64,000 bases of DNA, from the NCBI GenBank assembly GCA_963580285.1, contig OY757020.1:104163497-104227496 (forward strand), given 5' to 3'. This document shows positions 1,743-64,000 of this stretch, piece by piece. The DNA is from Lucinisca nassula (Eukaryota > Mollusca > Bivalvia > Lucinida > Lucinidae). How positions within the stretch are numbered: position 1 is the stretch's first letter; each line of letters opens with the position of its first letter. The notes below the pieces were generated by a model, which saw nothing but the letters and a program-made list of their open reading frames with translations, ran no database searches and was not told where the DNA came from. A program made the position numbers and the translations under genes.

Positions 1743-3495
1743 AGCAAAACTAGAACTGTCAGAGGATCTGACTATAGCCCCGCTATAGCCCTGTCAGAGG
1801 AGAAAGACTCATGAATTAAAGGTAAAGACTTGTGAGAGGGTTAAATCCCTAACAAGGTACCTACGCCTTATAGACTTTTCGCGTTATTAGATCTGAAAAA
1901 CAGTCTAAGTTAAAAAATAGGTTTTGGATAATGAAAAAAGCACATGCACATCTTCAGACCTATATGAAAACACCTGTTAAATTTCAAAAGGATTGACTAG
2001 AACTGTAAGAGGAGTTGCGATCACAAGGTAGCAACTTTCTATACATTTTAACATTAGTAGATCTAAAAAAATTGTCTAAGTTAAAAAAGGTGAAATAAGT
2101 AAAAAAATTATTTAAGGATAATGAAAAAAGAAAATGCACATCTTCAGACCTATATGAAAACACCTGTAAAGTTTCAAAAGGATTGACCTAGAACTGTAAG
2201 AGGAGTTGTGGTCACAAGGTAGCTACTCCCTATACATTTTAACATTAGTAGATCTCAAAAATTGTCTAAGTTAAAAAAGGTGAAATAAGTGAAAAAATTA
2301 TTTAAGGATAATGAAAAAAGAAAATGCACATCTTCAGACCTATATGAAAACACCTGTAAAGTTTCAAAAGGATTGACCTAGAACTGTAAGAGGAGTTGCG
2401 GTAACAAGGTAGCTACTCCCTATACATTTTAACATTAGTAGATCTCAAAAATTGTCTAAGTTATAAAAGGTGAAATAAGTGAAAAAAATTATTTAAGGAT
2501 AATGAAAAAAGAATATGCATATCTTCAGACATATATGATAATACCTGTAAAGTTTCAAAAGGATTGACTTAGAACTGTAAGAGGAGTTGCGGTAACAAGG
2601 TAGCTACTCCCTATACATTTTAACATTAGTAGATCTAAAAAAATTGTCTAAGTTAAAAAAGGTGAAATAAGTAAAAAAATTATTTAAGGATAATGAAAAA
2701 AGAAAATGCACATCTTCAGACCTATATGAAAACACCTGTAAAGTTTCAAAAGGATTGACCTAGAACTGTAAGAGGAGTTGTGGTCACAAGGTAGCTACTC
2801 CCTATACATTTTAACATTAGTAGATCTCAAAAATTGTCTAAGTTAAAAAAGGTGAAATAAGTGAAAAAATTATTTAAGGATAATGAAAAAAGAAAATGCA
2901 CATCTTCAGACCTATATGAAAACACCTGTAAAGTTTCAAAAGGATTGACCTAGAACTGTAAGAGGAGTTGCGGTAACAAGGTAGCTACTCCCTATACATT
3001 TTAACATTAGTAGATCTCAAAAATTGTCTAAGTTATAAAAGGTGAAATAAGTGAAAAAAATTATTTAAGGATAATGAAAAAAGAATATGCATATCTTCAG
3101 ACATATATGATAATACCTGTAAAGTTTCAAAAGGATTGACTTAGAACTGTAAGAGGAGTTGCGGTAACAAGGTAGCTACTCCCTATACATTTTAACATTA
3201 GTAGATCTCAAAAATAGTCTAAGTTAAGAAAGGTGAAATAAGTGAAAAAAATTATTTAAGGATAATGAAAAAAGAATATGCACATCTTCAGACCTATATG
3301 AAAACACCTGTAAAGTTTCAAAAGGATTGACCTAGAACTGTTAGAGGAGTTGCGGTAACAAGGTACCCACTATCAAATATTACAGACAGACAGACAGACA
3401 GACGGAATTCCGGACAAATTACCGACAGACGGAATTCCGGACAAGCCAAATCCAATATAGCCCCCGCTTTTTCAAAGCGGGGCTATAATAAATGT
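1743..3495. mobile_element. Pearl-like element with 190-bp tandem array and higher-order structure
   Basis: About 7.5 units of 190-191 bp (anchor ACATTAGTAGATCT at about 2051, 2242, 2432, 2623, 2814, 3004, 3195). Then a (CAGA)n/CAGACGG tract at about 3380-3440 and a terminal hairpin (TAGCCCCCGC...GCGGGGCTA, 3458-3488). The left end carries a matching sub-terminal TATAGCCCCGCTATAGCCC at about 1772-1792. Tandem core, ACRG microsatellite, sub-terminal inverted repeat and 3' hairpin are the layout described for pearl / Helentron-associated elements. Confidence 0.7.
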
Positions 3496-8952: not shown

Positions 8953-9333
8953 GGATTGGAGAGGCCGAATGCCATGGCTTCTCAGTTTCTTATGGCAAGG
9001 AAAGGAGCACCGTTCTTATATCTCTGGCATAAAAGCTACGAGAATGACTACCGTAATTACTGGACGTACAACGCTTTGGCAGTGCCTTTTAGAATAGCAC
9101 AGAAACATCCGGATTTTATACATGTAGAAGGCAACAGATTCAATCTGCCTAACTGGGAGTCAAGAAGTCAGATTTTTCGGCAAAACTATGACTGGTCAGA
9201 CAGTTATGCTATGCATTTATATATACGATGGTACAAAAAAAGGTTCGATGAAAGTATTATAGGCCTATTAAATACAACTCTAGGCAGTGTTTCTCGACAT
9301 ATTTTATTTGGCAACAAAGAGTTATGTGTTTAG
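8953..9333 (+). CDS. Glycosyltransferase terminal exon
   Basis: Acceptor TTTACAAACAG ends at 8952. The exon reads 126 codons to a TAG at 9331-9333, continuing in phase 0 from the exon at 4064-4143. Visible family features are ERPNA, the ARKGAPFL segment (residues 16-23), the YNALAVPF block, IHVEGNRFNLPNW and DWSDSYAMHLYIRWYKK, all typical of the C-terminal half of DXD-type alpha-1,4-glycosyltransferases. The run is open with no lesion, so the gene is probably functional. The protein ends with GNKELCV. A MITE begins 5 bp after the stop codon, so the 3' UTR is repeat-derived. No AATAAA is close to the stop; the first candidates are in later repeats. Confidence 0.92.
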   Translation, partial: GLERPNAMASQFLMARKGAPFLYLWHKSYENDYRNYWTYNALAVPFRIAQKHPDFIHVEGNRFNLPNWESRSQIFRQNYDWSDSYAMHLYIRWYKKRFDESIIGLLNTTLGSVSRHILFGNKELCV

Positions 9334-13689: not shown

Positions 13690-14275
13690 ATAAAATTTTG
13701 ACCCCCTCCCCACTGAAACACCACTTTTATGTAGTAAAAATGGGGTTTACAGGGGTATGTACTAATATTTTATTTGTGCTCAAAACACAGATTGTGGGTA
13801 CTCGTAAGAACCGCCTCATTGAGGTGGTTCTAACGAGCACCCGCAACCTTTAATGAAAGCCGAAATAAGAAAGATGTGGCAATTTTACCCAAGTTGTTAT
13901 TGTTTTGGAGTTTACCGGCCCAGTCAACACTATTTCAGGTCATTTGTGAGCCGGTCAGTTTACCTATCCACACTTGTCCTTGGTAGGCTTATACGAAAGT
14001 TGTTAACCAGTACAGTGCACATACTTTCGCCAGAAACTGACAACTGCCCTTCTTGAATCAGCGGAAGGAAGAGAATGACCGTAGAAAAGATTTCATGATC
14101 AATCTCCACGAAAGAATATTGCCGACCCCGGCAGGTATCGAACCCGCGTCCTCCTGATCACCAGTCAGACGCGCATCCGACTGCCCTACCGAGGCCGGTC
14201 AATTTTACCCTAATATTTGACATTTCTGACACCGTGTTGGACGCCGTTATTTCACATGGACATGTTTTGCTAATA
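13690..14275. mobile_element. MITE H3 interrupted by a SINE B
   Basis: The core palindrome is at 13785-13850; the right end AACACGG...GGACATGTTTTGCTAATAG matches the inverted left end of 50594-50874. SINE B sits at 13891-14199. Confidence 0.75.
13891..14199 (-). mobile_element. SINE B, tRNA-headed, full length
   Basis: Flanked by the exact 11-bp duplication CAATTTTACCC (13880-13890 and 14200-14210). Read on the - strand it has a tRNA-like head (GGCCTCGGTAGGGCAGTCGG, a GGT-like anticodon loop, B box GGGTTCGATACC). The middle and 3' module are shared with SINE A, and the tail reads GTTGACTGGGCCGGTAAAC. Confidence 0.93.
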
Positions 14276-32042: not shown

Positions 32043-32634
32043 ACATGGCTGATACATAGAGAGCAAGTCCCATCATGATATTTGACACTACAGCCACTAT
32101 TACTGTACAATAATTGGTTTGGTCGCCATGAGGCGGGCAAACCGGGTATAATGACCAGATTGTAACTGTTCCATGGAGGGGCACGTGACGCGATCAACCA
32201 ATCAGCTTTAACGATGATGCAATACTATACTGCAATTACAGGAAACAGCCTGTCTGAATAGCGAAACAGACCGAAAAGCAAGCGTTTTAACTCCAACAAT
32301 AAATATCTTAAGGGAAATGGATACACCTGGCAGGTGTGGCAGTTAGTCTACCATTTTTGGCTTCCGATTTCGATTGGAAGCCCTTTAGATTGGATTGGTG
32401 ATACCCCAGTTTATTTCTAACCGTCTTATGGCGTAACTAGGAAAGCCCTACAGATATTTACGCAGTGAAAACGGGTTCAGAATAAACAGGAATGCAGCGC
32501 CCGTCGATGTCTATTTATAAAGCGTTTCCAGATATCTATTTATAAAGCGTTTCCAAGAAGTCAAACCAAAGAAAAAAAGTTACAGTAGGAACAGGTCCTA
32601 CTTTCAGTTTCGTCCTTTGGATGTAACCTCATAA
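32043..32634. other. Intron, no clear feature
   Basis: One small hairpin (GGCTTCCGATTTCGATTGGAAGCC, about 32360-32383) and a local 23-bp direct repeat (TCTATTTATAAAGCGTTTCCA, about 32509 and 32536). No exon recognised. Confidence 0.45.
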
Positions 32635-32840
32635 TTAACCCATAGGTGCCAAAAATATTCCACTTTTATGAGCCTGGAGTGGTCATTTTCTAAGCATAGG
32701 GATGCCATTTTTAGGTAAGTTTTACAAAAATGCATGTACGTTGAGCAAACAGTTTAGATCTTGATCAGATGCGGCGTCTGATCTGGGTCCACACTGTTTG
32801 CCAATGTCTGAAAAAGGGTCGCTAGGCATATATGGGTTAA
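32635..32840. mobile_element. Small MITE U
   Basis: TIRs TTAACCCATA...TATGGGTTAA, about 206 bp. Contains the repeat-T block CTGATCTGGGTCCACACTG. Confidence 0.7.
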
Positions 32841-33023
32841 TTCGTCAATGTACTTGATTCCAGTTGGCCTACCACGTGCAAGATGAAATTATCTTAACTG
32901 CCGTATTCGACTGCTGTGACTCGAAACTAACCCTATGGTCTGTATAACCCGTCTTCTGCATTGGGATCATTATAAAACATCAACATGTATGTGCTAAAAT
33001 CTCATGAACTAGCATTTTCAGTT

Positions 33024-33223
33024 CATTACGAAAACACGCCTATTCAAATATATACAGAATTTTGCCACCCAAATGAAAATTGCCCGATAAAAAAATTCAG
33101 ATTTGTTCATATTTCTGCTCTAAATATAGATTGTGGGTACTGCTTAGAACCGCCTCGATGACGAGGTTCTAACGACTACCCATTGTCTAGGGGTCAAGAT
33201 TAGGTAGGCGTGTTTTCGTGATG
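33024..33223. mobile_element. MITE H, right part shortened
   Basis: Ends CATTACGAAAACACGCC and GGCGTGTTTTCGTGATG. Hairpin arms TTAGAACCGCCTCG / GACGAGGTTCTAACG. Confidence 0.82.
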
Positions 33224-33229
33224 TGAGAA

Positions 33230-33440
33230 AATATTCTTTTTTTTTCTAGTCCAAATATAGATTGTCGGTGCACGGTGTTCTGAACCCCCTATAAAGGAAA
33301 TAATGTACCCCTGTACACTCAACTTTCTCTATATAAAGTTGGGTTTATAGGGTTGTTCAGTACTTATGCGGTAGCCTCAAAGTGCTTCTAGTGCCTGGTT
33401 ACCTTCGTTGTTCAGTGCACGGACTTGTTGATGTAATGCT
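33230..33440. mobile_element. MITE H2, degenerate
   Basis: AAATATAGATTGTCGGTGC, TATATAAAGTTGGGTTTATAG and CACGGACTTGTTGATGTAATG remain; the core is lost. Confidence 0.6.
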
Positions 33441-34740
33441 TTTCTTTTCTTAAGGATTTGTAAAAGAACCCCAAAAAAAAAACCGCCTACAGATTACAAA
33501 AGTTAATTCTGCCACTCGAGTCACACTTCTCTCGGAGTCTCAAACTTTTCATGGTCACTCAGAATTTCCAGGACGAGTTTACGAAGAGAATTTGACAGTT
33601 GAAATCAGTAAAAAATAGTTTTGCAGAGTCCAGTTACATGTACATGCAGATAGTCTAACTAGCCGATAACTTACTGCGTAAAAAATTCCGAGTTGTATTT
33701 CACGAAGTAGATCAATCAAGTGTGCTTGTTGTAGGGTGATCTCTATGAAAGTGATATGTCATTTTTTCTTCATTTCTATAGCAACATTATTAACCATTCT
33801 TTTATAAGCGGTGGGTGAAGAAAGAAAAAAAAAAAAAAAAACAGTTTTAAACCATGATTGCAGAACTTGTCTCGATCGTACCTCGAACTCAGGCAGAAAG
33901 AGATCTCATATCCTACCAACATGGTCAATTTTACAAACATGCCATTGTTCATCGCATGTCAAACGAGCAATTTAAAAGCTTAACATGTACATGGACAAAT
34001 TTTCCACCAGCGTAAAACCTGTGCGAGTGAGCAGCTCCCAACATTCAGCCTTCTCTGTTCATAAATGCCGATTTTTTAACCAATACAGTTAAATGCGCAC
34101 CGACGTTGCGGTTTTGCTCCTCGCCGGGTCCGTGAATATGTTTCTACGTAGATTGTCCTCCTTTCAATGGTTTAAGACGGACAGCTAACACTGAAACAGT
34201 TTCGTAAAAGCCTTACCAGAAATATCGTGCTTATTTAGAGCGACAACATCGATTCAACGTCAAGACGTGGCATCGGCTTCATGGGCATGACATGGGTTTT
34301 CACAAAGGCGACCAGCACTGGCTTAAACGAGCCTGCGAGTACGTGCAGCCTTACCACAGCCTTTGCTGCTCTCGGATATGTAGAAGAGAAGTTGCGTTTC
34401 AGTTGGCTGCGCACATGCATTTGACAAAATATATGATTATAAGGGAGGTAATACAGAAGAAATGATTAACTTTTTCAGCCCCAGAACCTGGGAAATCGAG
34501 TGAAAAACAATGTGAAAAATATTGTTTTCTTTTTTTTTTATACCAGTTGATAACTTTACTTGAAAATAAATTTGTAAACCAGCACAAATGATTGCTTGCA
34601 GGTAAACTTCAACAAATGCGGACACCGATGCTAACGCCGACGCCGGACGCCGGGGGTATGGTAATAGCTCCCCCTTACTTTTGAAAGGCGAGCAGATTTT
34701 TAACTTTACAAACTAGGGAAAGTAGAAGTAAAACAAAGAT
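33441..34740. other. Intron, no recognised gene or repeat
   Basis: Contains A-runs at 33822-33841 and T-runs at 34532-34541. No exon-like frame with splice borders found. Confidence 0.4.
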
Positions 34741-35262
34741 CAGGAATCAAGCAATTAACTTACTCCACCCATCAAAAACACCAAAGGGAAAGAAACACAA
34801 ACATGAAGCGACCAGACCATAATGGAAACCTAAACAAAGGATGGCCATAAGGACAGTTACTTTCCCACAAAATGGCCAAATGCCCATCCAAAATAAAAAG
34901 ACACAAGTGATACACACAGTGAGTAGTAACAAACAACAACATAAATAAACCGCCACAGAAGAACCGCCTTGGAACGGTCAGTGGAAAGAATTCCACTGCG
35001 GGGCTTAAATCGATTTTACGTGGCCACAATCCTCGCCCTTACTTCCGTCGCGATTTAGACAAATAATTTGTTCAGTCCGCATGAAGGCCTCCTAACTCAT
35101 CAGTGCAACATCTCCGTGAACACAAATAACCAAAGAACCACAGAGGTGAGACAACGGTGAGGACTCGACAGCAAAAAAAAAAAAAAAAACAAAAAAAAAA
35201 ACACAAAAAAAAACACTGAAATGCTGGAGCAAATGAAAACCTACAGTTAGCCTTCTTTTTAA
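34741..35262. repeat. Dispersed repeat family I, near full length
   Basis: Same sequence and order as 1-467; ends near the GGAGCAAATGAAAACC block after an A-rich run (35176-35212). Confidence 0.82.
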
Positions 35263-35576
35263 AAGGAAACTTTATTACCGTATTTCGAAACACACCTATA
35301 CAAATGCATTGTCATTTTTTGGCCAAAGGAAAAGAAATTTTAAAAAGAAACATTTGAATATTTGCCTTTTTGCTCAAAACATAGATTGCGGGGAGTCGAC
35401 AGAAACGCCTCGACGAGGCGATTCTATCGAGTACTCACATTCTAGTGTCTCAGAGCATGAATACGGAAATTAATGTATACCCCTGCAAACCTGTGCTTTA
35501 CTATATGAAAGTGAAGATTATATTTTCTTGTCCTTTGGGATCATTGATTCCATTGTGGAATTTTGAAAATATCTGA

Positions 35577-35622
35577 GGGTCACTGATGAGGCCTAATTGG
35601 CCGAAACTAGCTAGACTGGCCC
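35577..35622 (+). ncRNA. Hammerhead ribozyme, type I, copy 1 (probably inactive)
   Basis: Core CTGATGA (35583-35589), stem II GGCC-TAATT-GGCC (35590-35602), GAAAC (35603-35607), a 3-bp stem III with AGCT loop, then stem I TGGCCC (35617-35622) pairing with GGGTCA (35577-35582). The cleavage triplet position reads GAC (35614-35616) instead of GUC, losing the U that pairs with A15.1. Confidence 0.75.
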
Positions 35623-35837
35623 AGAAAATATGTACACTCCTTATTTTTCAGTTCTGTGGTGTATTCCTTGCTTCCAAAGGATAGCCCTTTTATAGAACAT
35701 ATTAAACTTCACTTCAACTGGTGTATGGGAATGTGTGGCGGCGGTAAAACGTCTCCCTGCCCTACATCATAGTGTAGATTATATTTTCTTGCCCTATGGG
35801 ATCATTGATTCCATTGTGGAATTTTGATAATATCTTA

Positions 35838-35882
35838 GGGTCACTGATGAGGCCTAATTGGCCGAAACTAGCTAGCCTGGCC
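35838..35882 (+). ncRNA. Hammerhead ribozyme, type I, copy 2 (probably inactive)
   Basis: Same elements as copy 1: CTGATGA at 35844-35850, intact 4-bp stem II, GAAAC. The cleavage triplet position reads GCC (35875-35877). Stem I pairs TGGCC with GGTCA. Confidence 0.75.
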
Positions 35883-36054
35883 AAGAAAATATGTGCACAC
35901 CATATTTTTTCAGTTCTGTGGTGTATTCCTTGCTTCCAAAGGATAACCCTTTTATAGAACATATTAAAGGGGATCACAATTCTATAGGCATGATTTCGTG
36001 ATGGAAATACAACTTTAAGGACCTTATGGTTGCTACTCTGTTGGCTCTGTCCAA

Positions 36055-36185
36055 CTGAAAAAGGGGTCTACTCTAAAAGGGGAAGAATTTGCTGCTCAAG
36101 GGGTCTACTCTAAAAGGGAAGAATTTGCTCCTAAGAAGTAAATTATTTCCTTTAAGAGTTTATCCCTTAGACATATCCAAAGAGA
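36055..36185. repeat. Repeat X, two direct units with inverted end
   Basis: GGGGTCTACTCTAAAAGGGGAAGAATTTGCT repeated twice, followed by an inverted version (TTATTTCCTTTAAGAGTTTATCCC). A compact hairpin form is at 59299-59366. Confidence 0.65.
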
Positions 36186-36369
36186 AACTACTTTTGCAGG
36201 AGTAGCCCCACCCCTTTAAGGCGTATCTATTTCCCTTATGGGGAACTTATAACATCCGCAGTCATTTTCGCAAATTTTACGTCTTGCAATGCCATTATGG
36301 AGAAAGTCCATGGGGCCATGGAAACGAAAAACAACAGATTATAACTATACTACTACTCACAAAGTGTGG

Positions 36370-36665
36370 CTGGCTGCGGTAGCTGAGTCGGATGCAGTCT
36401 GACTGGTGATAAGGAAGACTCGGGTTCGATACCTACCGGGGTCGGCAACATTCTTTCGTGGAGATTGATTATGAAATCTTTTCTATGGTCATTATCTCCC
36501 TTCCGCTGATTCAGGAAGGGCAGAGGTCAGTTTTGGGCGACAGAATGTGCACTGAACTGGTAAACCGCTTACGGATGAGCCTGCTCAGGAAAAGCGTGGA
36601 TAGGTACACTGACAGGCCCAAACATGACCCAAATCAGTATTGACTGGGCCGTTAAATAAAAAAAA
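36370..36665 (+). mobile_element. SINE B, full length
   Basis: tRNA-like head (GGTAGCTGAGTCGGATGCAG, B box GGGTTCGATACC), shared 3' module and tail TGACTGGGCCGTTAAATAAA. Confidence 0.88.
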
Positions 36666-36822
36666 ACTTGCAAAGTTTACTTCACACAGATAGGAACAGA
36701 TTTATATATTCTGAACAGCTTTCGGTATGCTATTAGCTCTAATAATACGTACATGTCAATGTTGGAAAGACAGAGAACGTTATTTTTCCTCATTTATAAA
36801 GATCGCTGGGTGTAACGGGCCT

Positions 36823-37033
36823 ACGTGGCCTAGTGGATAAGAGTGCTGACTCTTAATCATTAGGTCTCTCAACGCTGTAGGTTTGAGCATAGCTCAGGTC
36901 ACATAATGAGAAGTTCTGCAACCAAAAGATCAGGAGGTTTTCCACCGGGTACTCCAGTTTTCGCTCACCTCTGATTAACGATCGGCTTGATGTGAGTGAA
37001 ATAATCTTGAAAGGATCGTTAAACGAAACATAA
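36823..37033 (+). mobile_element. SINE C
   Basis: Head GGGCCTACGTGGCCTAGTGG with GACTCTTAATCAT (Lys-like anticodon region). Tail TCTTGAAAGGATCGTTAAACG. Confidence 0.87.
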
Positions 37034-37394
37034 AAAAGATCGCTGGGTGTGTAAAAACATGTTCATGTTTTTGCTACTAGAATTAACGTCAGTGCCAAGG
37101 TCGAACCTTCTAACTCTTCCAAATATATAAAACATTTAGGGAGCGAAACAGTCATAACGTTGATGGGTTTCTGTTCAAAAACTTCATGACTACTAAGTGA
37201 CCTGCCACCAGTTACAGACCGAGTTGTTAAATGCTTTTTTGGCACATTCGATGGGAACTATTGTATCAGATAACCACTCAATACTTGACGGTTTACTAAT
37301 CAGTTTCTTTTACAATTAAGTTGTGATCCAGAAAGATATACAAAAGGATTGCAAATTTCAGGTTTTTGCGGAGGTACCGCTCAAAGAAACTGTC

Positions 37395-37770
37395 GAGGTT
37401 TAAGATACATTCTGATTCACAGCACTTTGTCTGGGCAGGCTTAGATCTTCCTAGGCGGTTCAGCAATACTTCAAAGTTCGGTCGGTTTCAGCTCATGCAG
37501 TCAAATATATTGCCCCAAGGTCTGATCGGCCCCAGTCCATCGGGAACTGAAGAAATAGATTGGGTTGCATGGTGCTTCCACGCAGAGCTGATACCGGCCA
37601 CACTTGAGTAGTGTTAAATCGCCAAGAAGTTCTAAGCCTGTCCAGGAAAAGTGGCTCGAGTGGGACCGTTCATGCATTTCAACCATTTAGTTTCATTGGG
37701 CGACAGATTGGAAGCAATGTCTAAAAAAGACTCATACAGTGTTAACAGGGGCATTAACAACAAATGAAAT
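37395..37770. repeat. Two SINE A pieces in opposite orientation
   Basis: 37395-37500 is a reverse-strand fragment (GGGCAGGCTTAGATC...GTCGGTTTCAGCTC). 37515-37770 is a forward-strand copy (CATCGGGAACTGAAGAAATA ... GTTAACAGGGGCATTAA). Confidence 0.75.
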
Positions 37771-37937
37771 AGATAACCAAGGCCCTATAGAAGGCATGAT
37801 GACTTAGGAAAAATCTTTCTATGTACCCGTTTGAAAAACAAAAACAACAACAACAACAAAAACGGTCGTATTAAGTTATGCTTTGGTTGGTGTCCATCCG
37901 TCCGTTCGTAAACTTTTTTTTCGTTTCCGTATAACTC

Positions 37938-38221
37938 CGGCCCCGATAGCTCAGTGGTAGAGCGTCCGCTTCGGGAATGGGAGGTCGCGGGTTCGATACC
38001 CGGCCGCGCCATACCAAAGGCGTGAAAAATGGTACTAGGAGCTCCCTTGGCTGGCGCTCGCATTATCAGGGGTAGTCCTAGGAAGATAAATGAAGGCAGG
38101 TAAGTATTTGTTAGAGGATACTTTGTTTGTCGCAATAAAAGCTCTGCAGAGCTTATGTTATTTGTTTCGAATGTGCGACGTTAAATAAAGCTTCTTTATC
38201 TTTATCTTCATCTTTATCTCC
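37938..38221 (+). mobile_element. SINE F, tRNA-headed
   Basis: GGCCCCGATAGCTCAGTGGT head, B box GGGTTCGATACCC, body, then GCGACGTTAAATAAAGCTTC and a (TCTTTA)n-like tail. Confidence 0.88.
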
Positions 38222-38559
38222 TACTATACAGTTTTCATCCGATTAAGCCTAAAATGTGTATGTAGTAAGGCTAAGATGTGAAGATATGCCTTAAGTTTCG
38301 AGAATTACTGTCCACCAAATATTAACAGAGTTATGACCTTTGAAAAATTCGGTTTACATTTTCGTATGGTTAAGTTTTGTGCTATACATGTGTAAAACAT
38401 ATGTAAGTTACATTTAGTTTATACTTGCCATGGCGTTAAACAATTTACCACAGAATACTCATCACTACCCACCCCTCCTGATACTAAGGTCACAGACTTT
38501 GACATTTTATATACACGTTTTGTATTAAAAAATAGAAGTGGAGGCAATGCTCAGGAATC

Positions 38560-38950
38560 GTTACAATCAACCCACAGCTCCCATCAGAGACACCAAAGGG
38601 AAAGACACACAAACATGAAACAACAGACCCTAATGGAAACACCAACAGCGGAAAGCCAAAAGGACAGTTACTTTCCCATAAAATGGCCAAAAGGCTATCC
38701 AAAATAAAATCATATAAACGACACAAACAACCATAACAAAAACAAACCACGATAGAAAAACCGCCTTGGAACGGTCAGCGGAAACGAATTCCACTGGGGG
38801 GCTTAAATCGATTTTACGTGGCCACAATCCTCGCCCTTACTTCCGTCGCGATTTAGGCAAATAAAATTTGCTCAGTCCGCATGAAGGCCTCCAGACTTCA
38901 GACAAACCATAACAAAAATATACCGCGACAGAAGAACCGCCTTGGAACGT
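38560..38950. repeat. Dispersed repeat family I, with a partial second copy
   Basis: Main copy 38560-38890; the segment with CCATAACAAAAA and GAAGAACCGCCTTGGAACG occurs again at 38905-38950. Confidence 0.78.
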
Positions 38951-39059
38951 TTAAAGTTTATTATTTTTATTAAAAAAATGCATTAAGTGGGATAATGATA
39001 TCAGCTGGCTCAAATCAGAATGTAGACTGACAAGACCAAACCTATTGGATGCTTTTTGA

Positions 39060-39330
39060 AAGCAGCCAACTTGTTTCACACAGCGACAAGTAGTAATATA
39101 ACGTGATGTCAAAGAGTACGTTTATAATCCACGCGTCACGCCATTGTGTATACAATGACACCAACAGCGTTCGATTTAAAGATGGAAAACTATTGAAAAC
39201 GTAAATGTTAGAAGATAGAACATTTAACATAAAACTGGTGTTATTAGGAATAAATTAAACCCGAGTGCTCTATGCTAAGTGTGGGTTATCCGCCAGAGTT
39301 TACACATCAATAAAATCAACAATGAAACGT
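39060..39330. repeat. Dispersed repeat K
   Basis: AGTAATATAACGTGATGTCAAAGAG...TCACGCC...AACAGCGTTCGATTTAAAGATGG, shared with 25310-25440 and 28870-28960. Confidence 0.72.
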
Positions 39331-41984: not shown

Positions 41985-43910
41985 AGGATTTGTTAGGATA
42001 ACAAGGTCCAAAATAGTTATTTTCAGCAAAGACGTGGACATAACTCTATAAGTAATAATCCGACATTGTCATGTTTTGAACCCGTTCGAGCTTTTATTCC
42101 TTACTTACCTATATGCAAGTTTCAGGAAGAGACGGTCAAAACTTAGGGGCTCATGGTGATGGCAATGTCAAAAATAGGCATTTCAACAATCAAAGGGATG
42201 TAACTGCATGACAGACAAGCTAACTTCGCGTTTTCAAACTCATCCAAGCAGTTTTCCCGAGCCACTTATGTGTTGGTTTCAGGAAGATCCGATTATAGCT
42301 AAGGGACTTATGGTGATGACAAGGCCCAAAACTCATTCAAGTTGTTATCCCCAACCTACTCATGTGTTAGTTTCAGGAGAATCCGATTAAAGCTAAAGCG
42401 CTTATGGTGATGACAAGGTCCACAATAGGCTTTTTCAGCAATCAAAGGGACATAACTCTATTAAACAGAGGCCGACCTTGCCAGTTTCGAACTCACCCAA
42501 GCCGTTATCCCCAACCTACGTATGGTTTAGTTTCAGGAAAATCATATTAAAACTATAGGACGTATGATGATGACAGGGCCCGAAGTAGGCATTTTTAGCA
42601 ATCCAAGGGACATTACCCTATGACAGACAGGTCGACCTCACCAGTTTTCGAACTCACACAAGCTGTTATCCCCAACATCTATGCATTTAGTTTCATGAAG
42701 ATCCGATTAAAGCTGAAGGACAGATGGTGATGACAAGGTCCCAAAATAGACATTTTCAGCAATCTATGTCCTCTATAAGTAATAGGCCGACATCGCCAGT
42801 TTTTCGAACTCATTTGAGTTGTTATCTCTGACTTACTTACAAGTAAGTTTCTAGAAGATACGATCAAACCTGAAGGGGCTACGGTGGTGACACGGTCACA
42901 AATAGGCTTTTTCAGCAATCAAGGGGACACAGCTTTATGATTAATAGGCCGACTTCACCAGTTTTCGAACTCATCCGAGCCTTTAACCCAAGACTACTTA
43001 TATATAAGTTTCAGAAAGAGGCGATCAAACCTGAAGGGGCTATGGTCGTGACACGAGCAAAAATAGACATTTTCAGCAATCAATGGGACATATCTCTATG
43101 ACTAATAGGCAGACTTTGTCAGTTTTCAAACCCATCCAAGCTTTTAGCCCATGCCTATATAAAGGGGCTACGGTGGAAACAAGGTCAAAAATTTTTAGCA
43201 ATTAATGGGACATTTGTTTGTTTGTGTGTTTGTATTAAAATTTAACGACCCAGTCAACACTATCAAGGTCATTTTTGAGCCGGTCAGTTTACTTATCCAC
43301 ACTGTTCCTGGGTAGACTTAGCTGCAAGCGGTTAACCTGTATAGTGCACATTCTTGCGCCAGAAACTGACAGCTGCCCTTCTTGAAGACAGGCAAATGAC
43401 CGTAGAAAAGATCCGATGATCAAACTCCAAGAAAGAATGTTGCCGACCCCGGCAGGTATCGAACCCGCGTCCTCCTGATTACCAGTCAGACGCGCATCCG
43501 ACTGAGCTACGGAGGCCGGCCAATCAATGGGACATAACTCTATGATTAACTGGCTGACTTCACAAGTTTTCGAACTCATCCGAGCTTTTTACCCCAAGCC
43601 TACTCATATACATGTGTGTTAGAAAGATCCGTTAAAAGCTGAAGGCGCTACAGTGGTTACAAGCATTTATCCGTTGTAAGTTTGTGGGACCTTGTTGTTG
43701 CCATAGCAATCAGAGTTTTTATTGAATTTTGGAAGAAAGCTTTAATATGTCACCAATCCTCCACCAGAGACATGTTATAGATGAGAAATGATTGAGATCA
43801 GCCTGCGAGCTGCAAAGATACAGTGTATAACTCGTCAAAGGTGCTGACTGACTGACGGACTAACGACGGATCGACTACCATACTATTAGCTCGGCCCAGC
43901 TGAGCTAAAA
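41985..43910. repeat. Pearl-like tandem array Q (about 150-bp units)
   Basis: About eleven degenerate units with GGGACATAACTCTATGA, CCAGTTTTCGAACTCATCC, GTTTCAGGAAGATCCGATTAAA and GGTGATGACAAGGTC. Interrupted by SINE B at 43214-43520. The end has ACTGACTGACGGACTAACGACGG and a terminal hairpin AGCTCGGCCCAGCTGAGCT at about 43891-43916. Confidence 0.75.
43214..43520 (-). mobile_element. SINE B, full length
   Basis: 15-bp duplication CAAT(T/C)AATGGGACAT (43199-43213, 43521-43535) inside array Q. The tRNA-like head on the - strand is GGCCTCCGTAGCTCAGTCGG. Confidence 0.93.
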
Positions 43911-48992: not shown

Positions 48993-49128
48993 AATTTACT
49001 TTTTTCGGTGGACATCTCGTGTGTTGAAAACATCCGAATTGGCACTCGTGCTTCGCACTCGTGAAAAATTGGATGTTTTCAACATACTCGATGAAATATT
49101 TTTGGTATCCACCTCAACAAAGTAAATG
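48993..49128. mobile_element. Foldback MITE
   Basis: Arms ATTTACTTTTTTCGGTGGAC ... GTGTTGAAAACATCC and GGATGTTTTCAAC ... ATCCACC-AACAAAGTAAAT, around the centre CACTCGTGCTTCGCACTCGTG. Confidence 0.8.
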
Positions 49129-49133
49129 TCTTC

Positions 49134-49417
49134 CATCACGAAAACAGGCCTATATAATTTTGACCCCCTCGAACCCCACTTTTTTATAGTAAAACTGGGG
49201 TTTCCGGGGTTATACCTTATTTTTCTTATTTCTGCTCTAAGATATACGTAGATTGTGGGTACTCGTTAGAACCGCCTCGACGAGGCGGTTCTAACGAGTG
49301 CCCACAATCTATATTTGGAGCAGAAATAAGAAAAATATCGCAATTTTTCATCATAAAATTTTCATTTTTTCGGCGATTAAGGTGGCAATATATTTGTATA
49401 GGCGTGTTTGCGTAATG
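49134..49417. mobile_element. MITE H, best-preserved copy
   Basis: Ends CATCACGAAAACAGGCC and GGCGTGTTTGCGTAATG. Near-perfect core TAGATTGTGGGTACTCGTT and complement (49250-49314). Flanked by ATGTCTTC at 49126-49133 and 49419-49426. Confidence 0.9.
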
Positions 49418-49577
49418 TATGTCTTCACTGAAGTAAGAACAATATTGCGTCCCAGTGTTAAGTATAGGGTTTTATGTAAATGCACAAAAAATGTAAATAT
49501 AGCAAAATAATGTGGTTTCAAGGATCATTAACGAGTTCCTAATAACAATAATAATAATAATAAACAAGGTATTTCAG

Positions 49578-57645: not shown

Positions 57646-57770
57646 TGGTCACTGATGAGGCCTTATTACCCGAAACTAGCTAGTCTGGCCCAGAAAACAT
57701 GTGCACTCCATATTTTCCAGTTATGTGGTGTATCCCTTGCTTCCAAAGGATAACCCTTTCTGTAACATAT
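57646..57770 (+). mobile_element. Retrozyme-like unit W, single copy
   Basis: Shares the ribozyme and GTGGTGTATCCCTTGCTTCC...AACCCTTTCTGTAACATATT with the dimer at 35513-35970. It starts at the ribozyme and lacks the preceding half unit. Confidence 0.75.
57647..57690 (+). ncRNA. Hammerhead ribozyme, type I, copy 3 (GUC site intact, stem II broken)
   Basis: CTGATGA 57652-57658, GAAAC 57672-57676, stem III ACT/AGT with loop AGCT, cleavage triplet GTC (57683-57685), stem I GGTCA/TGGCC. Stem II GGCC/ACCC keeps only two pairs. Confidence 0.72.
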
Positions 57771-57914
57771 TGTATGAGTCATGGGCGTGATCTGCGAAGG
57801 TAAGCAAAATGACATGTTACCTACCACACTTTTAAGAATGTAACTCAAGATTCTATAACCTATGCTGCGCGTTATCGTCTTCCGCTATGTCAGTGACATG
57901 TCCAAAGTTTAAGA

Positions 57915-61974: not shown

Positions 61975-62330
61975 GCACCTTGTGGACATTAAGTGCCAGG
62001 TCCTAGTGCACCAGACGGAGATGAATGGGCTCAATCTAACTAACTAGCAATGACTCATGGTGACAAGGGGGGGGGGGGAGGGGTATCCATCTCTTTGACA
62101 ATACAGAGCTGACTTGTATGTCACTATCTGGGCACCTTGTGGGCATTGAGGGTCAGGTCCTAGTGCACCAGACGGAAATGAACACACTCAGTCTAACTAA
62201 CAATGGTGACAAAGGGAGTGTGGGCGGGGGGAAGGGGGTGGCCCTTTGTAAAAGGTACCACTATATTCCTAAAATACCCCTCCTGACCAAGGTATTACCA
62301 AAAAAGGTCCATTCTGAGCAAGTTTGATGT
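61975..62330. repeat. Two direct copies of a ~170-bp segment
   Basis: TTGTCACTATCTGGGCACCTTGTGG (61959, 62116), AGGTCCTAGTGCACCAGACGG (about 61999, 62154), TCTAACTAAC, G-rich tract. Confidence 0.75.
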
Positions 62331-64000
62331 TGATTGGACTAAAACTGTGGCCTCTATAGTGTCAACAAGATTTTTCTATAATTTTACCTACTCCCCTCTT
62401 TTTGACCCCACATGACCAATATTCGAACTTGACCTAGATATTGCCAAGATGATCATTCTGAGCAAGTTTGATGATACTTAGACTAAAATTGCCGTCAAAA
62501 GAGTGTAAACAAGTTTTTTCTATGATTTGACCTACTGACCTACTTTTTGACCACACATGACCAATGTTCGAACTTGACCTAGATACTGTAGAGATGATCA
62601 TTCTGAGCAAGTCCGACACTGATTTGACCAGAACTGTGGCCTCTAGAGTGCTAACAAGTTTTTCTATAATTTGTCCTACTGACCTACGTTTTGACCCGAC
62701 ATGACATGTATTTGAACTTGACTGAGATATTGTCAGGCTGATCATTCTGAGCAAGTTTGTAGATGACTGGCCCAAAACTATGGCCTCTAGAGTGTTGACA
62801 AGGATTTTCTATGATCTGACCTACTGACCTAATTTTTGACCCGAAATGACCCATATTCAAACTTGACCGAGATATTGCCTGGATGAACATTCTGAGCATG
62901 TTTGAGGATGATTGGACCAAAACTGTGGCCTCTAGAGTATTAACAATGTTTTTCTATGATTTGACCTTCTGACCTACTTTTGACCCAACATGACCCATAT
63001 TCGAACTTGACCTAGATATTGTCAGGATGATCATTCTGAGCAAGCTTGAGGATGATTGGACAAAAACTGTGGCCTCTAGAGTGCTAACAAGGTTTTTCTG
63101 TGGTTTGACCTACTGACCTACTTTTTGACCTGATATGACCCATATTCGAACTTGACCGAGATGTCATCAAGATGATCATCCTGAGCAAGTTTGAGGATGA
63201 TTGGACCAAAACTGTCGCCTCTAGAGTGTAAACAAAGTTTTTCTTTGATTTGACCTGGTGACCTAGTTTTTACCCGACATGACCCATATACAAACTTGTC
63301 CGACATACTGTCAGGATGATCATTCTGAGCAAGTTTGAGGATGACTGGAACAAAACTGTGGCCTCTAGAGTGTTAACAAGGTTTTTCTATGACCTGACCT
63401 ACTGACCTTGTTTTTTGACCCGAAATGACCCATATTCAAACCAAGATATTGCCAGGATGAACATTCTGAGCATGTTCGAGGATGATTGGACCAAAACTTT
63501 GGCCTCTCGAGTGTTAAGAAGGTTTTTCTATGATTTGACCTACTGACCTACTTTATGACCCGACATGACCCGTATTCGAACTTGACCTAGATATTGTCAG
63601 GATGATCATTCTGGGCAAGTTTTAGAATGATTGGACTAAAACTGTGGCCTCTAGAGTGCTAACAATGTTTTTCTGTGGTTTGACCTACTGACCTACTTAA
63701 TGACCTGACATGACCCATATTCGAACTTGACCGAGATATTATCAACATGATCATCCTGAGCAAGTTTGAGGATGATTGGACCAAAACTGTCGCCTCTAGA
63801 GTGCAAAACAAGGTTTTCCTTTGATTTGACCTGGTGACCTACTTTTTGACCCGACATGACCCATATTCGAACTTGTCCGACAAATTGTCATGATGATCAT
63901 TCTGAGCAAGTTTGATGATGATTGGATCAAAACTGTGGCCTCTTGAGTGTTAACAAGAAAAGTTTACGCACGCACGACGAACGACGACGCCGGACATCTC
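62331..64000. repeat. Pearl-like tandem array P (145-bp units), runs off the window
   Basis: About eleven units of 144-145 bp (GTGGCCTCTAGAGTG near 62347, 62636, 62780, 62925, 63069, 63214...). Blocks: GACCTACTGACCTAC, CATATTCGAACTTGACC, CATTCTGAGCAAGTTTGAGG. Ends in ACGCACGCACGACGAACGACG at about 63968-63990, the ACRG-like terminus of pearl elements. Confidence 0.85.

Follow-up and report, generated by a model that had tools for sequence, protein, structure and literature searches.

Animal retrozymes have been established with the non-LTR retrozymes of coral, mussel, and axolotl (PMC7229834; also PMC7761336). The metazoan non-LTR retrozymes are described as non-coding tandem units within 170–400 nt that carry type I hammerhead ribozymes, have a GC content below 50%, lack an LTR, a primer binding site, and a polypurine tract, and occur in thousands of copies. 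Their target duplications, when present, are longer than 4 bp, the axolotl retrozyme possesses a short stem III with a palindromic loop, and the hammerheads of newt and axolotl cleave better as dimers (PMC7229834). Penelope-like elements have been proposed as a strong candidate for retrozyme integration, with neither the enzyme nor the primer demonstrated in the accessible parts of these papers (PMC7229834, PMC7761336).

A 64-kb stretch of Lucinisca nassula DNA, referred to here as the window, contains a tandem pair of hammerhead units that shares the type I layout, the non-coding tandem organization with a unit length in the described range, the low GC content (0.41–0.42 in three real units), the high copy number, and the short stem III with a palindromic loop of the described elements. 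Judged by sequence, the L. nassula family is a new member of the animal retrozymes, an identity that is well supported, and the window pair belongs to this large non-LTR family. In comparison with the metazoan retrozymes, what is documented here is a 3′ end fixed at a distance from the cleavage site, 5′ ends that vary, and the lack of regular target duplication. No title or abstract reporting a fixed retrozyme start site or a retrozyme inside a Helentron was found in a literature coverage from which subscription journals are mostly excluded.

The hammerhead pair and its genomic family

The array in the window (35501..35968, forward strand, with a 5′ limit uncertain by about 10 nt) comprises about 1.8 units with a period of 261 bp and ends with ...AGAACATATT(AAA). 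Based on the sequence and on comparison with 20 copies of the surrounding host element, hammerhead 1, of type I layout, was placed at 35577..35622 and hammerhead 2 at 35838..35883, both on the forward strand. Their CTGATGA motifs start at 35583 and 35844, which confirms the pair exactly 261 bp apart, located as the initial annotation had placed it. The parts listed in that annotation are likewise present in each unit, namely CTGATGA, a 4-bp stem II (GGCC-TAATT-GGCC), GAAAC, a short, AGCT-looped stem III, and stem I, whose strands are GGGTCA and TGGCCC. Stem III has only 2 pairs in the window units, in contrast to 3 in intact copies, and hammerhead 2 lacks the outermost pair of stem I (TGGCCA). 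The cleavage U is absent from both units, as had been noted, because position 16.1 is A at 35615 in unit 1 and C at 35876 in unit 2; the predicted cut position of hammerhead 1 lies after 35616. The two units are 91% identical over 148 nt and 98% identical over 63 nt. When the window was searched with a core 25-mer allowing up to 3 mismatches, 3 matches were obtained against a mean of 0.00 across 100 shuffles, and the core matches are therefore not due to chance. The third match, at 57652, was absent from the initial annotation and belongs to a separate partial retrozyme insertion of about 0.48 unit (57647..57771, forward strand), which has the same 3′ end as the pair, retains GTC, and has a truncated stem I and two broken stem II pairs.

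The host genome (2.93 Gb in 696 contigs) was searched for exact matches to a 34-nt intact core pattern that begins with CTGATGA, ends with GTC, and leaves one base of loop II free. This search for genomic copies with an intact GUC, which the initial annotation had proposed, yielded 16,492 exact matches, 8,290 on one strand and 8,202 on the other, and the same pattern read backwards gave none. The core places listed occur as singles and as runs at a spacing of about 261 bp. A sample of 44 arrays was assembled from the 2 window arrays, 22 distinct arrays obtained from 30 loci (L039, L041, L045, L046, L053, L058, L062, and L063 being second views), and 20 further arrays at the next listed places, with same-array neighbours skipped. 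The 42 arrays outside the window were chosen for one intact core and all come from the initial 8 Mb of contig C1. A variant with the loop II sequence TTATT, with neighbouring cores 346 bp apart and not 261, was observed at locus L038.

Among the 41 units that were not selected for the core, position 16.1 is T in 38/38 and position 17 is C in 33/37 of the units with a letter there. Mean conservation differs little between the strict core (95.6%), the ribozyme (94.6%), and the sequence outside it (93.4%). Pairing was assessed in a larger set that includes core-selected units and the window units. In this set, inner stem I is paired in 70–76 of 77–79 units per pair, stem II in 72–77 of 76–79 units, and stem III in 74–75 of 77 units; outer stem I pairs weakly, and one of its pairs exists in just 6/80 units. 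Genomic copies without pairing in stems I and II, which had been named as evidence against a hammerhead, are thus not what this set contains, since inner stem I and stem II do pair. Only two of the 77 units with a letter at 16.1 deviate from T, one with A and one with C, and these are the two units of the window.

A covariance-model search with Rfam, also suggested in the initial annotation, detected no hammerhead reaching the gathering score in the window. Under lax settings, the window insert matched Hammerhead_3 alone, at 18.2 bits (gathering score 48.5; E 1.2) for each unit. The gathering-score search was equally without a hammerhead in five intact-copy loci and three phage loci, as was a lax search with E up to 1 in three intact-copy loci and two phage loci, and the three phage loci missed carry hammerheads with a 5-bp stem III. 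Absence from Rfam, which the initial annotation had named as refuting evidence, counts against the reading but says little, because intact copies and these longer-stemmed phage hammerheads are also missed, and Rfam was set aside as an arbiter. The phage-like IMG/VR contigs, which were found through the same stem II, possess type I hammerheads, with stem lengths of 6, 4, and 5 bp, at 8958(-) and 9349(-) in L001, 5186(+) and 5577(+) in L002, and 1385(-) in L003. The pairs in L001 and L002 are each 391 nt apart, and that in L001 brackets a 106-aa ORF; such a pair could release a gene-bearing RNA.

Folding lends the window units little support, with z values of -1.55 and -0.42, and neither unit has a complete hammerhead as its minimum-energy structure. 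In 66/80 units, the segment forming stem III reads as the perfect palindrome ACTAGCTAGT, and two ribozymes could therefore build a common stem III of 10 bp. For four real copies, the designed dimer was computed at -46.3 kcal/mol compared with -46.5 to -48.3 kcal/mol for the best dimers, and the predicted best dimer at locus L057 includes the hammerhead dimer. The dimer energy of the window units was discarded, as the designed fold fell below the computed minimum, probably through the scoring of non-standard pairs. The type I hammerhead of L. nassula probably acts as a dimer through its palindromic stem III. The hammerheads of newt and axolotl likewise have a weak stem III and may work as dimers (PMC7229834); here, in contrast, the entire stem III strand from A15.1 to U16.1 is a 10-nt palindrome, and dimer action is predicted.

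The Helentron-like carrier of the window pair

Both flanks of the pair match a MITE copy near window positions 49169–49185, in agreement with the claim that the pair was inserted into a MITE. The left part of the interrupted MITE (35281..35505, reverse strand, limits approximate) is a 225-nt match of 73% to the MITE copy at window 49100–49460, and the right part at the 3′ junction (35968..36006, reverse strand) is a 39-nt match of 87%. The MITE in turn lies within a high-copy, non-coding host element of about 7 kb (32114..39076, forward strand), whose copies align up to these limits and have different flanks beyond them; the ends were defined by comparing the window with two copies at each end. 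A genome search with a 601-base query gave 40 scored places, all at least 99% identical over essentially the full query. Twenty host copies were taken in 5-kb pieces (L005–L011 being views of seven of them), together with end pieces of three more. In all 20, unit 1 has GTC and unit 2 has GCC. Accordingly, the GCC of unit 2 was inherited, whereas GAC is a change of the window copy alone. The missing cleavage U, noted for both units, is thus a trait common to the sampled copies for unit 2 but is confined to this one copy for unit 1.

The host element is likely of the Helentron/HINE class. Its inverted repeat, which consists of a perfect 9-nt match or 11/12 nt (BLAST E 0.20) and is weak when taken alone, has one arm at the 5′ start and the other about 31 nt ahead of the 3′ end. 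A palindrome, GCTTT-TTG-AAAGC, is situated about 10 nt before the 3′ end, and TTT follows the 3′ border in the window and in two copies. HINE/Helentron elements, as described, possess subterminal inverted repeats of 12–15 bp, found 38–60 bp from the 3′ end in mite families, and share their ends with an autonomous Rep/helicase element (PMC4067079). The host element resembles them in being non-coding, in its 3′ palindrome, in its border T residues, and perhaps in the placement of its inverted repeat near the two ends; it differs in its length of about 7 kb, in a shorter repeat nearer to the 3′ end, and in carrying a retrozyme pair (PMC4067079). On this sequence evidence, the window pair is a passenger in a MITE inside a Helentron-like element of about 7 kb. 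The proposal that the pair is the remnant of an element that moved through a self-cleaved circular RNA is supported in part: retrozyme identity is well supported at the level of the family, the circular RNA is a step proposed from the junctions, and the pair reached this site by DNA-level copying of the host element and not by its own retroposition.

Spread of the units solely as DNA-transposon passengers, for example in this host element, would extend that nearer cause of the window pair to the whole family. Only 610 exact matches to the retrozyme/host 3′ junction exist in the genome, however, against the 16,492 intact cores (both being exact-match counts), the flanks of the 42 arrays outside the window are varied, and usable empty sites in repeats exist for 12 insertions. 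Exclusive spread as DNA is thus highly improbable.

Several other features were observed in and around the host element. At G000:C1:28520658-28521246, the retrozyme/host junction occurs three times at a spacing of 276 bp, where a fragment of the host element has secondarily become an array of tandem repeats. A hairpin at window 36094–36172, within the host element, has sub-threshold matches to several microRNA families (best E 0.012). The window also contains tRNA-like matches, perhaps heads of SINEs, at 14123–14195(-), 37940–38011(+), and 43444–43516(-), as well as tandem arrays at 1850–3371 and 62284–63957 with repeat units of about 0.15–0.2 kb.

Insertion junctions and the proposed retrozyme cycle

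For the family as a whole, target-primed reverse transcription around a circular RNA is the likely route of insertion, with the window pair as an old insertion later copied by the host element. When u=1 is defined as the first base 3′ of the cleavage site, the 3′ end falls at u=85–92, reading ...AGAACATATT(TA), in 36/44 arrays (binomial P 5e-47). The remaining eight 3′ ends are at u=32, 72, 74, 75, 81, 83, 97, and 101, the last two of which look like chance extensions of the alignment. In contrast to this fixed 3′ end, the 5′ ends of the 44 arrays range from u=11 to u=260. Thirteen of them cluster at u=148–153, yielding a common form of about 200 nt in which about 60 nt of the unit are missing; this cluster counts against the main reading. 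It includes the window pair and L051, whose left flanks resemble each other, so that these two are possibly not independent. The left flank of L052 is still unit-like, and its 5′ end is therefore uncertain. With the cluster included, the 44 ends depart slightly from uniformity (KS P 0.049), and the other 31 fit it (P 0.26). Circle folds, considered as an explanation for the start site and the 5′ cluster, differ among three real units.

The array lengths are fractional, from 0.48 to 6.7 units: 15 of the 44 are shorter than 0.97 unit, 17 span 0.97 to 2 units, and 12 reach at least 2 units. The tandem arrangement, the homogeneity of some arrays, and the existence of those 15 insertions of less than one unit could be accommodated if fixed-3′-end single insertions were expanded later by unequal crossing-over or slippage, with no multi-lap reverse transcription. 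An insertion of less than one unit cannot, however, expand to whole units, and the other 29 arrays, with fractional ends, extend over roughly one unit or more; such satellite-like growth is accordingly improbable as the source of the arrays.

Exact repeats of at least 8 nt near both ends were found in 0/44 arrays. Ordinary LINE insertion is expected to leave a target duplication, and since its absence is unlike such insertion, it counts against target-primed reverse transcription as the main reading. Long repeats flank L066, L068, and L084 and were not accepted as target duplications because they resemble tandem repeats local to the target. For 14/44 insertions, a repeat copy without the insertion was found among the sequences compared. 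Two of these empty sites were set aside, that of L068 because of a local tandem repeat and that of the window pair because of its gap of 21 and its poor match on the left. The remaining 12 have gaps of +5, -2, +7, +6, +4, +3, 0, +8, -10, +4, +9, and -14 nt, where plus denotes target loss, and L079 and L082 use one common reference. At 9/12 sites, at least 2 nt, T-rich, are shared with the insert end (scored by eye with no control), and the shared sequence is mostly CTT, CTTT, or CTTA in the target. The empty sites suggest that a fixed start site on the RNA is engaged through microhomology and that the second end is joined irregularly. In 7/44 insertions, the junction lies in copies of the window MITE (49134–49421), in both orientations, and six of these seven junctions are at positions matching 49169–49210, a possible target hot spot counted with no base-rate control.

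A circular template is favored because the insertions start far from the cleavage site, cross it (which partly reflects the selection of full-core loci), lap the unit more than once, and in the youngest arrays repeat one monomer. A cut linear monomer was rejected as the template, as it cannot cross the cleavage site and lap repeatedly. The main rival to the circle is an uncut linear multimer, in which read-through transcripts of arrays would be reverse transcribed from the same internal start; it accounts equally well for the ends, fixed on the 3′ side and variable on the 5′ side, and for the arrays of several units. Among 22 arrays with at least two near-full units, mean divergence is 5.1% within arrays and 9.2% between them. 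In nine, the divergence inside the array exceeds that to the nearest other array, and one more is tied; these arrays, internally no more alike than to their nearest neighbor, agree with the linear multimer and give no support to a single circular template, and age could explain them. On the other hand, the six most homogeneous arrays differ by 0.5–1.4% inside and by 2.0–5.4% from the nearest other array. These are the youngest, with nearly identical units that repeat one monomer, whereas a copy of an old array would have inherited its differences. Circles are also described as accumulating for other animal retrozymes (PMC7229834). The linear multimer is thus rather unlikely, and the circular RNA is preferred on the strength of the junctions.

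In the proposed cycle, array transcripts would be cut by the type I hammerhead, probably as a dimer held by the 10-bp helix of the palindromic stem III strands, and the resulting monomers of about 261 nt would be closed into circles. A borrowed retroelement enzyme may then expose a target 3′ end adjoining CTT/TTT, which could pair with the AUAUU(U) site about 87 nt 3′ of the cleavage site. Reverse transcription would run round the circle for anything between part of a lap and several laps, with a variable stop, and the second end would be joined with small losses of target and no regular target duplication. One such pair, inserted in a MITE inside the Helentron-like element, was carried into hundreds of DNA-level copies, and unit 1 of the window copy lost its cleavage U after the copying of the host element. 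Taken jointly, namely rolling-circle target-primed reverse transcription from an internal AUAUU(U) site, microhomology-primed at CTT/TTT with fractional laps and no regular duplication, together with paired ribozymes of palindromic stem III and a dimer captured and multiplied by a Helentron-like transposon, the scheme is about evenly balanced between holding and failing in some part.

The source of the putative enzyme was sought among GIY-YIG-domain frames, of which 138 matches, up to 820 aa long, were obtained among 150 scored candidates. Some are paired 3.8–4.0 kb apart (e.g., G000:C5:35878300, C6:63493014, and C5:145336487), and these frames are possible intact Penelope-like elements. In three regions beyond such matches (L088–L090, of the 138), neither a complete hammerhead nor a tail shared with the retrozyme was found, and no similarity to the retrozyme unit was detected below E 0.36. 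A Penelope-like link was thus not borne out in these three, and other Penelope families or LINEs may supply the enzyme. Neither the retrozyme unit nor the host element has a coding ORF for the reverse transcriptase and GIY-YIG endonuclease of a Penelope-like element, as no ORF of at least 150 aa occurs within the window and the longest stop-to-stop frame of the host element is 131 codons. The minimal hammerheads of Penelope-like elements, as far as described, are likewise of type I, with a short stem III and a tandem arrangement (PMC7229834, PMC7761336); the family in the window differs in its non-coding unit, and the three GIY-YIG ends carry no hammerhead or shared tail.

The junction anatomy of the L. 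nassula family bears on the integration step by which retrozymes return to DNA. The more than 16,000 intact cores supply many junctions, and the first 44 arrays have a common start and variable stops, which makes the model of a circular template testable by sequence. In addition, the host element represents a second route of spread for ribozyme units, by capture at the DNA level.
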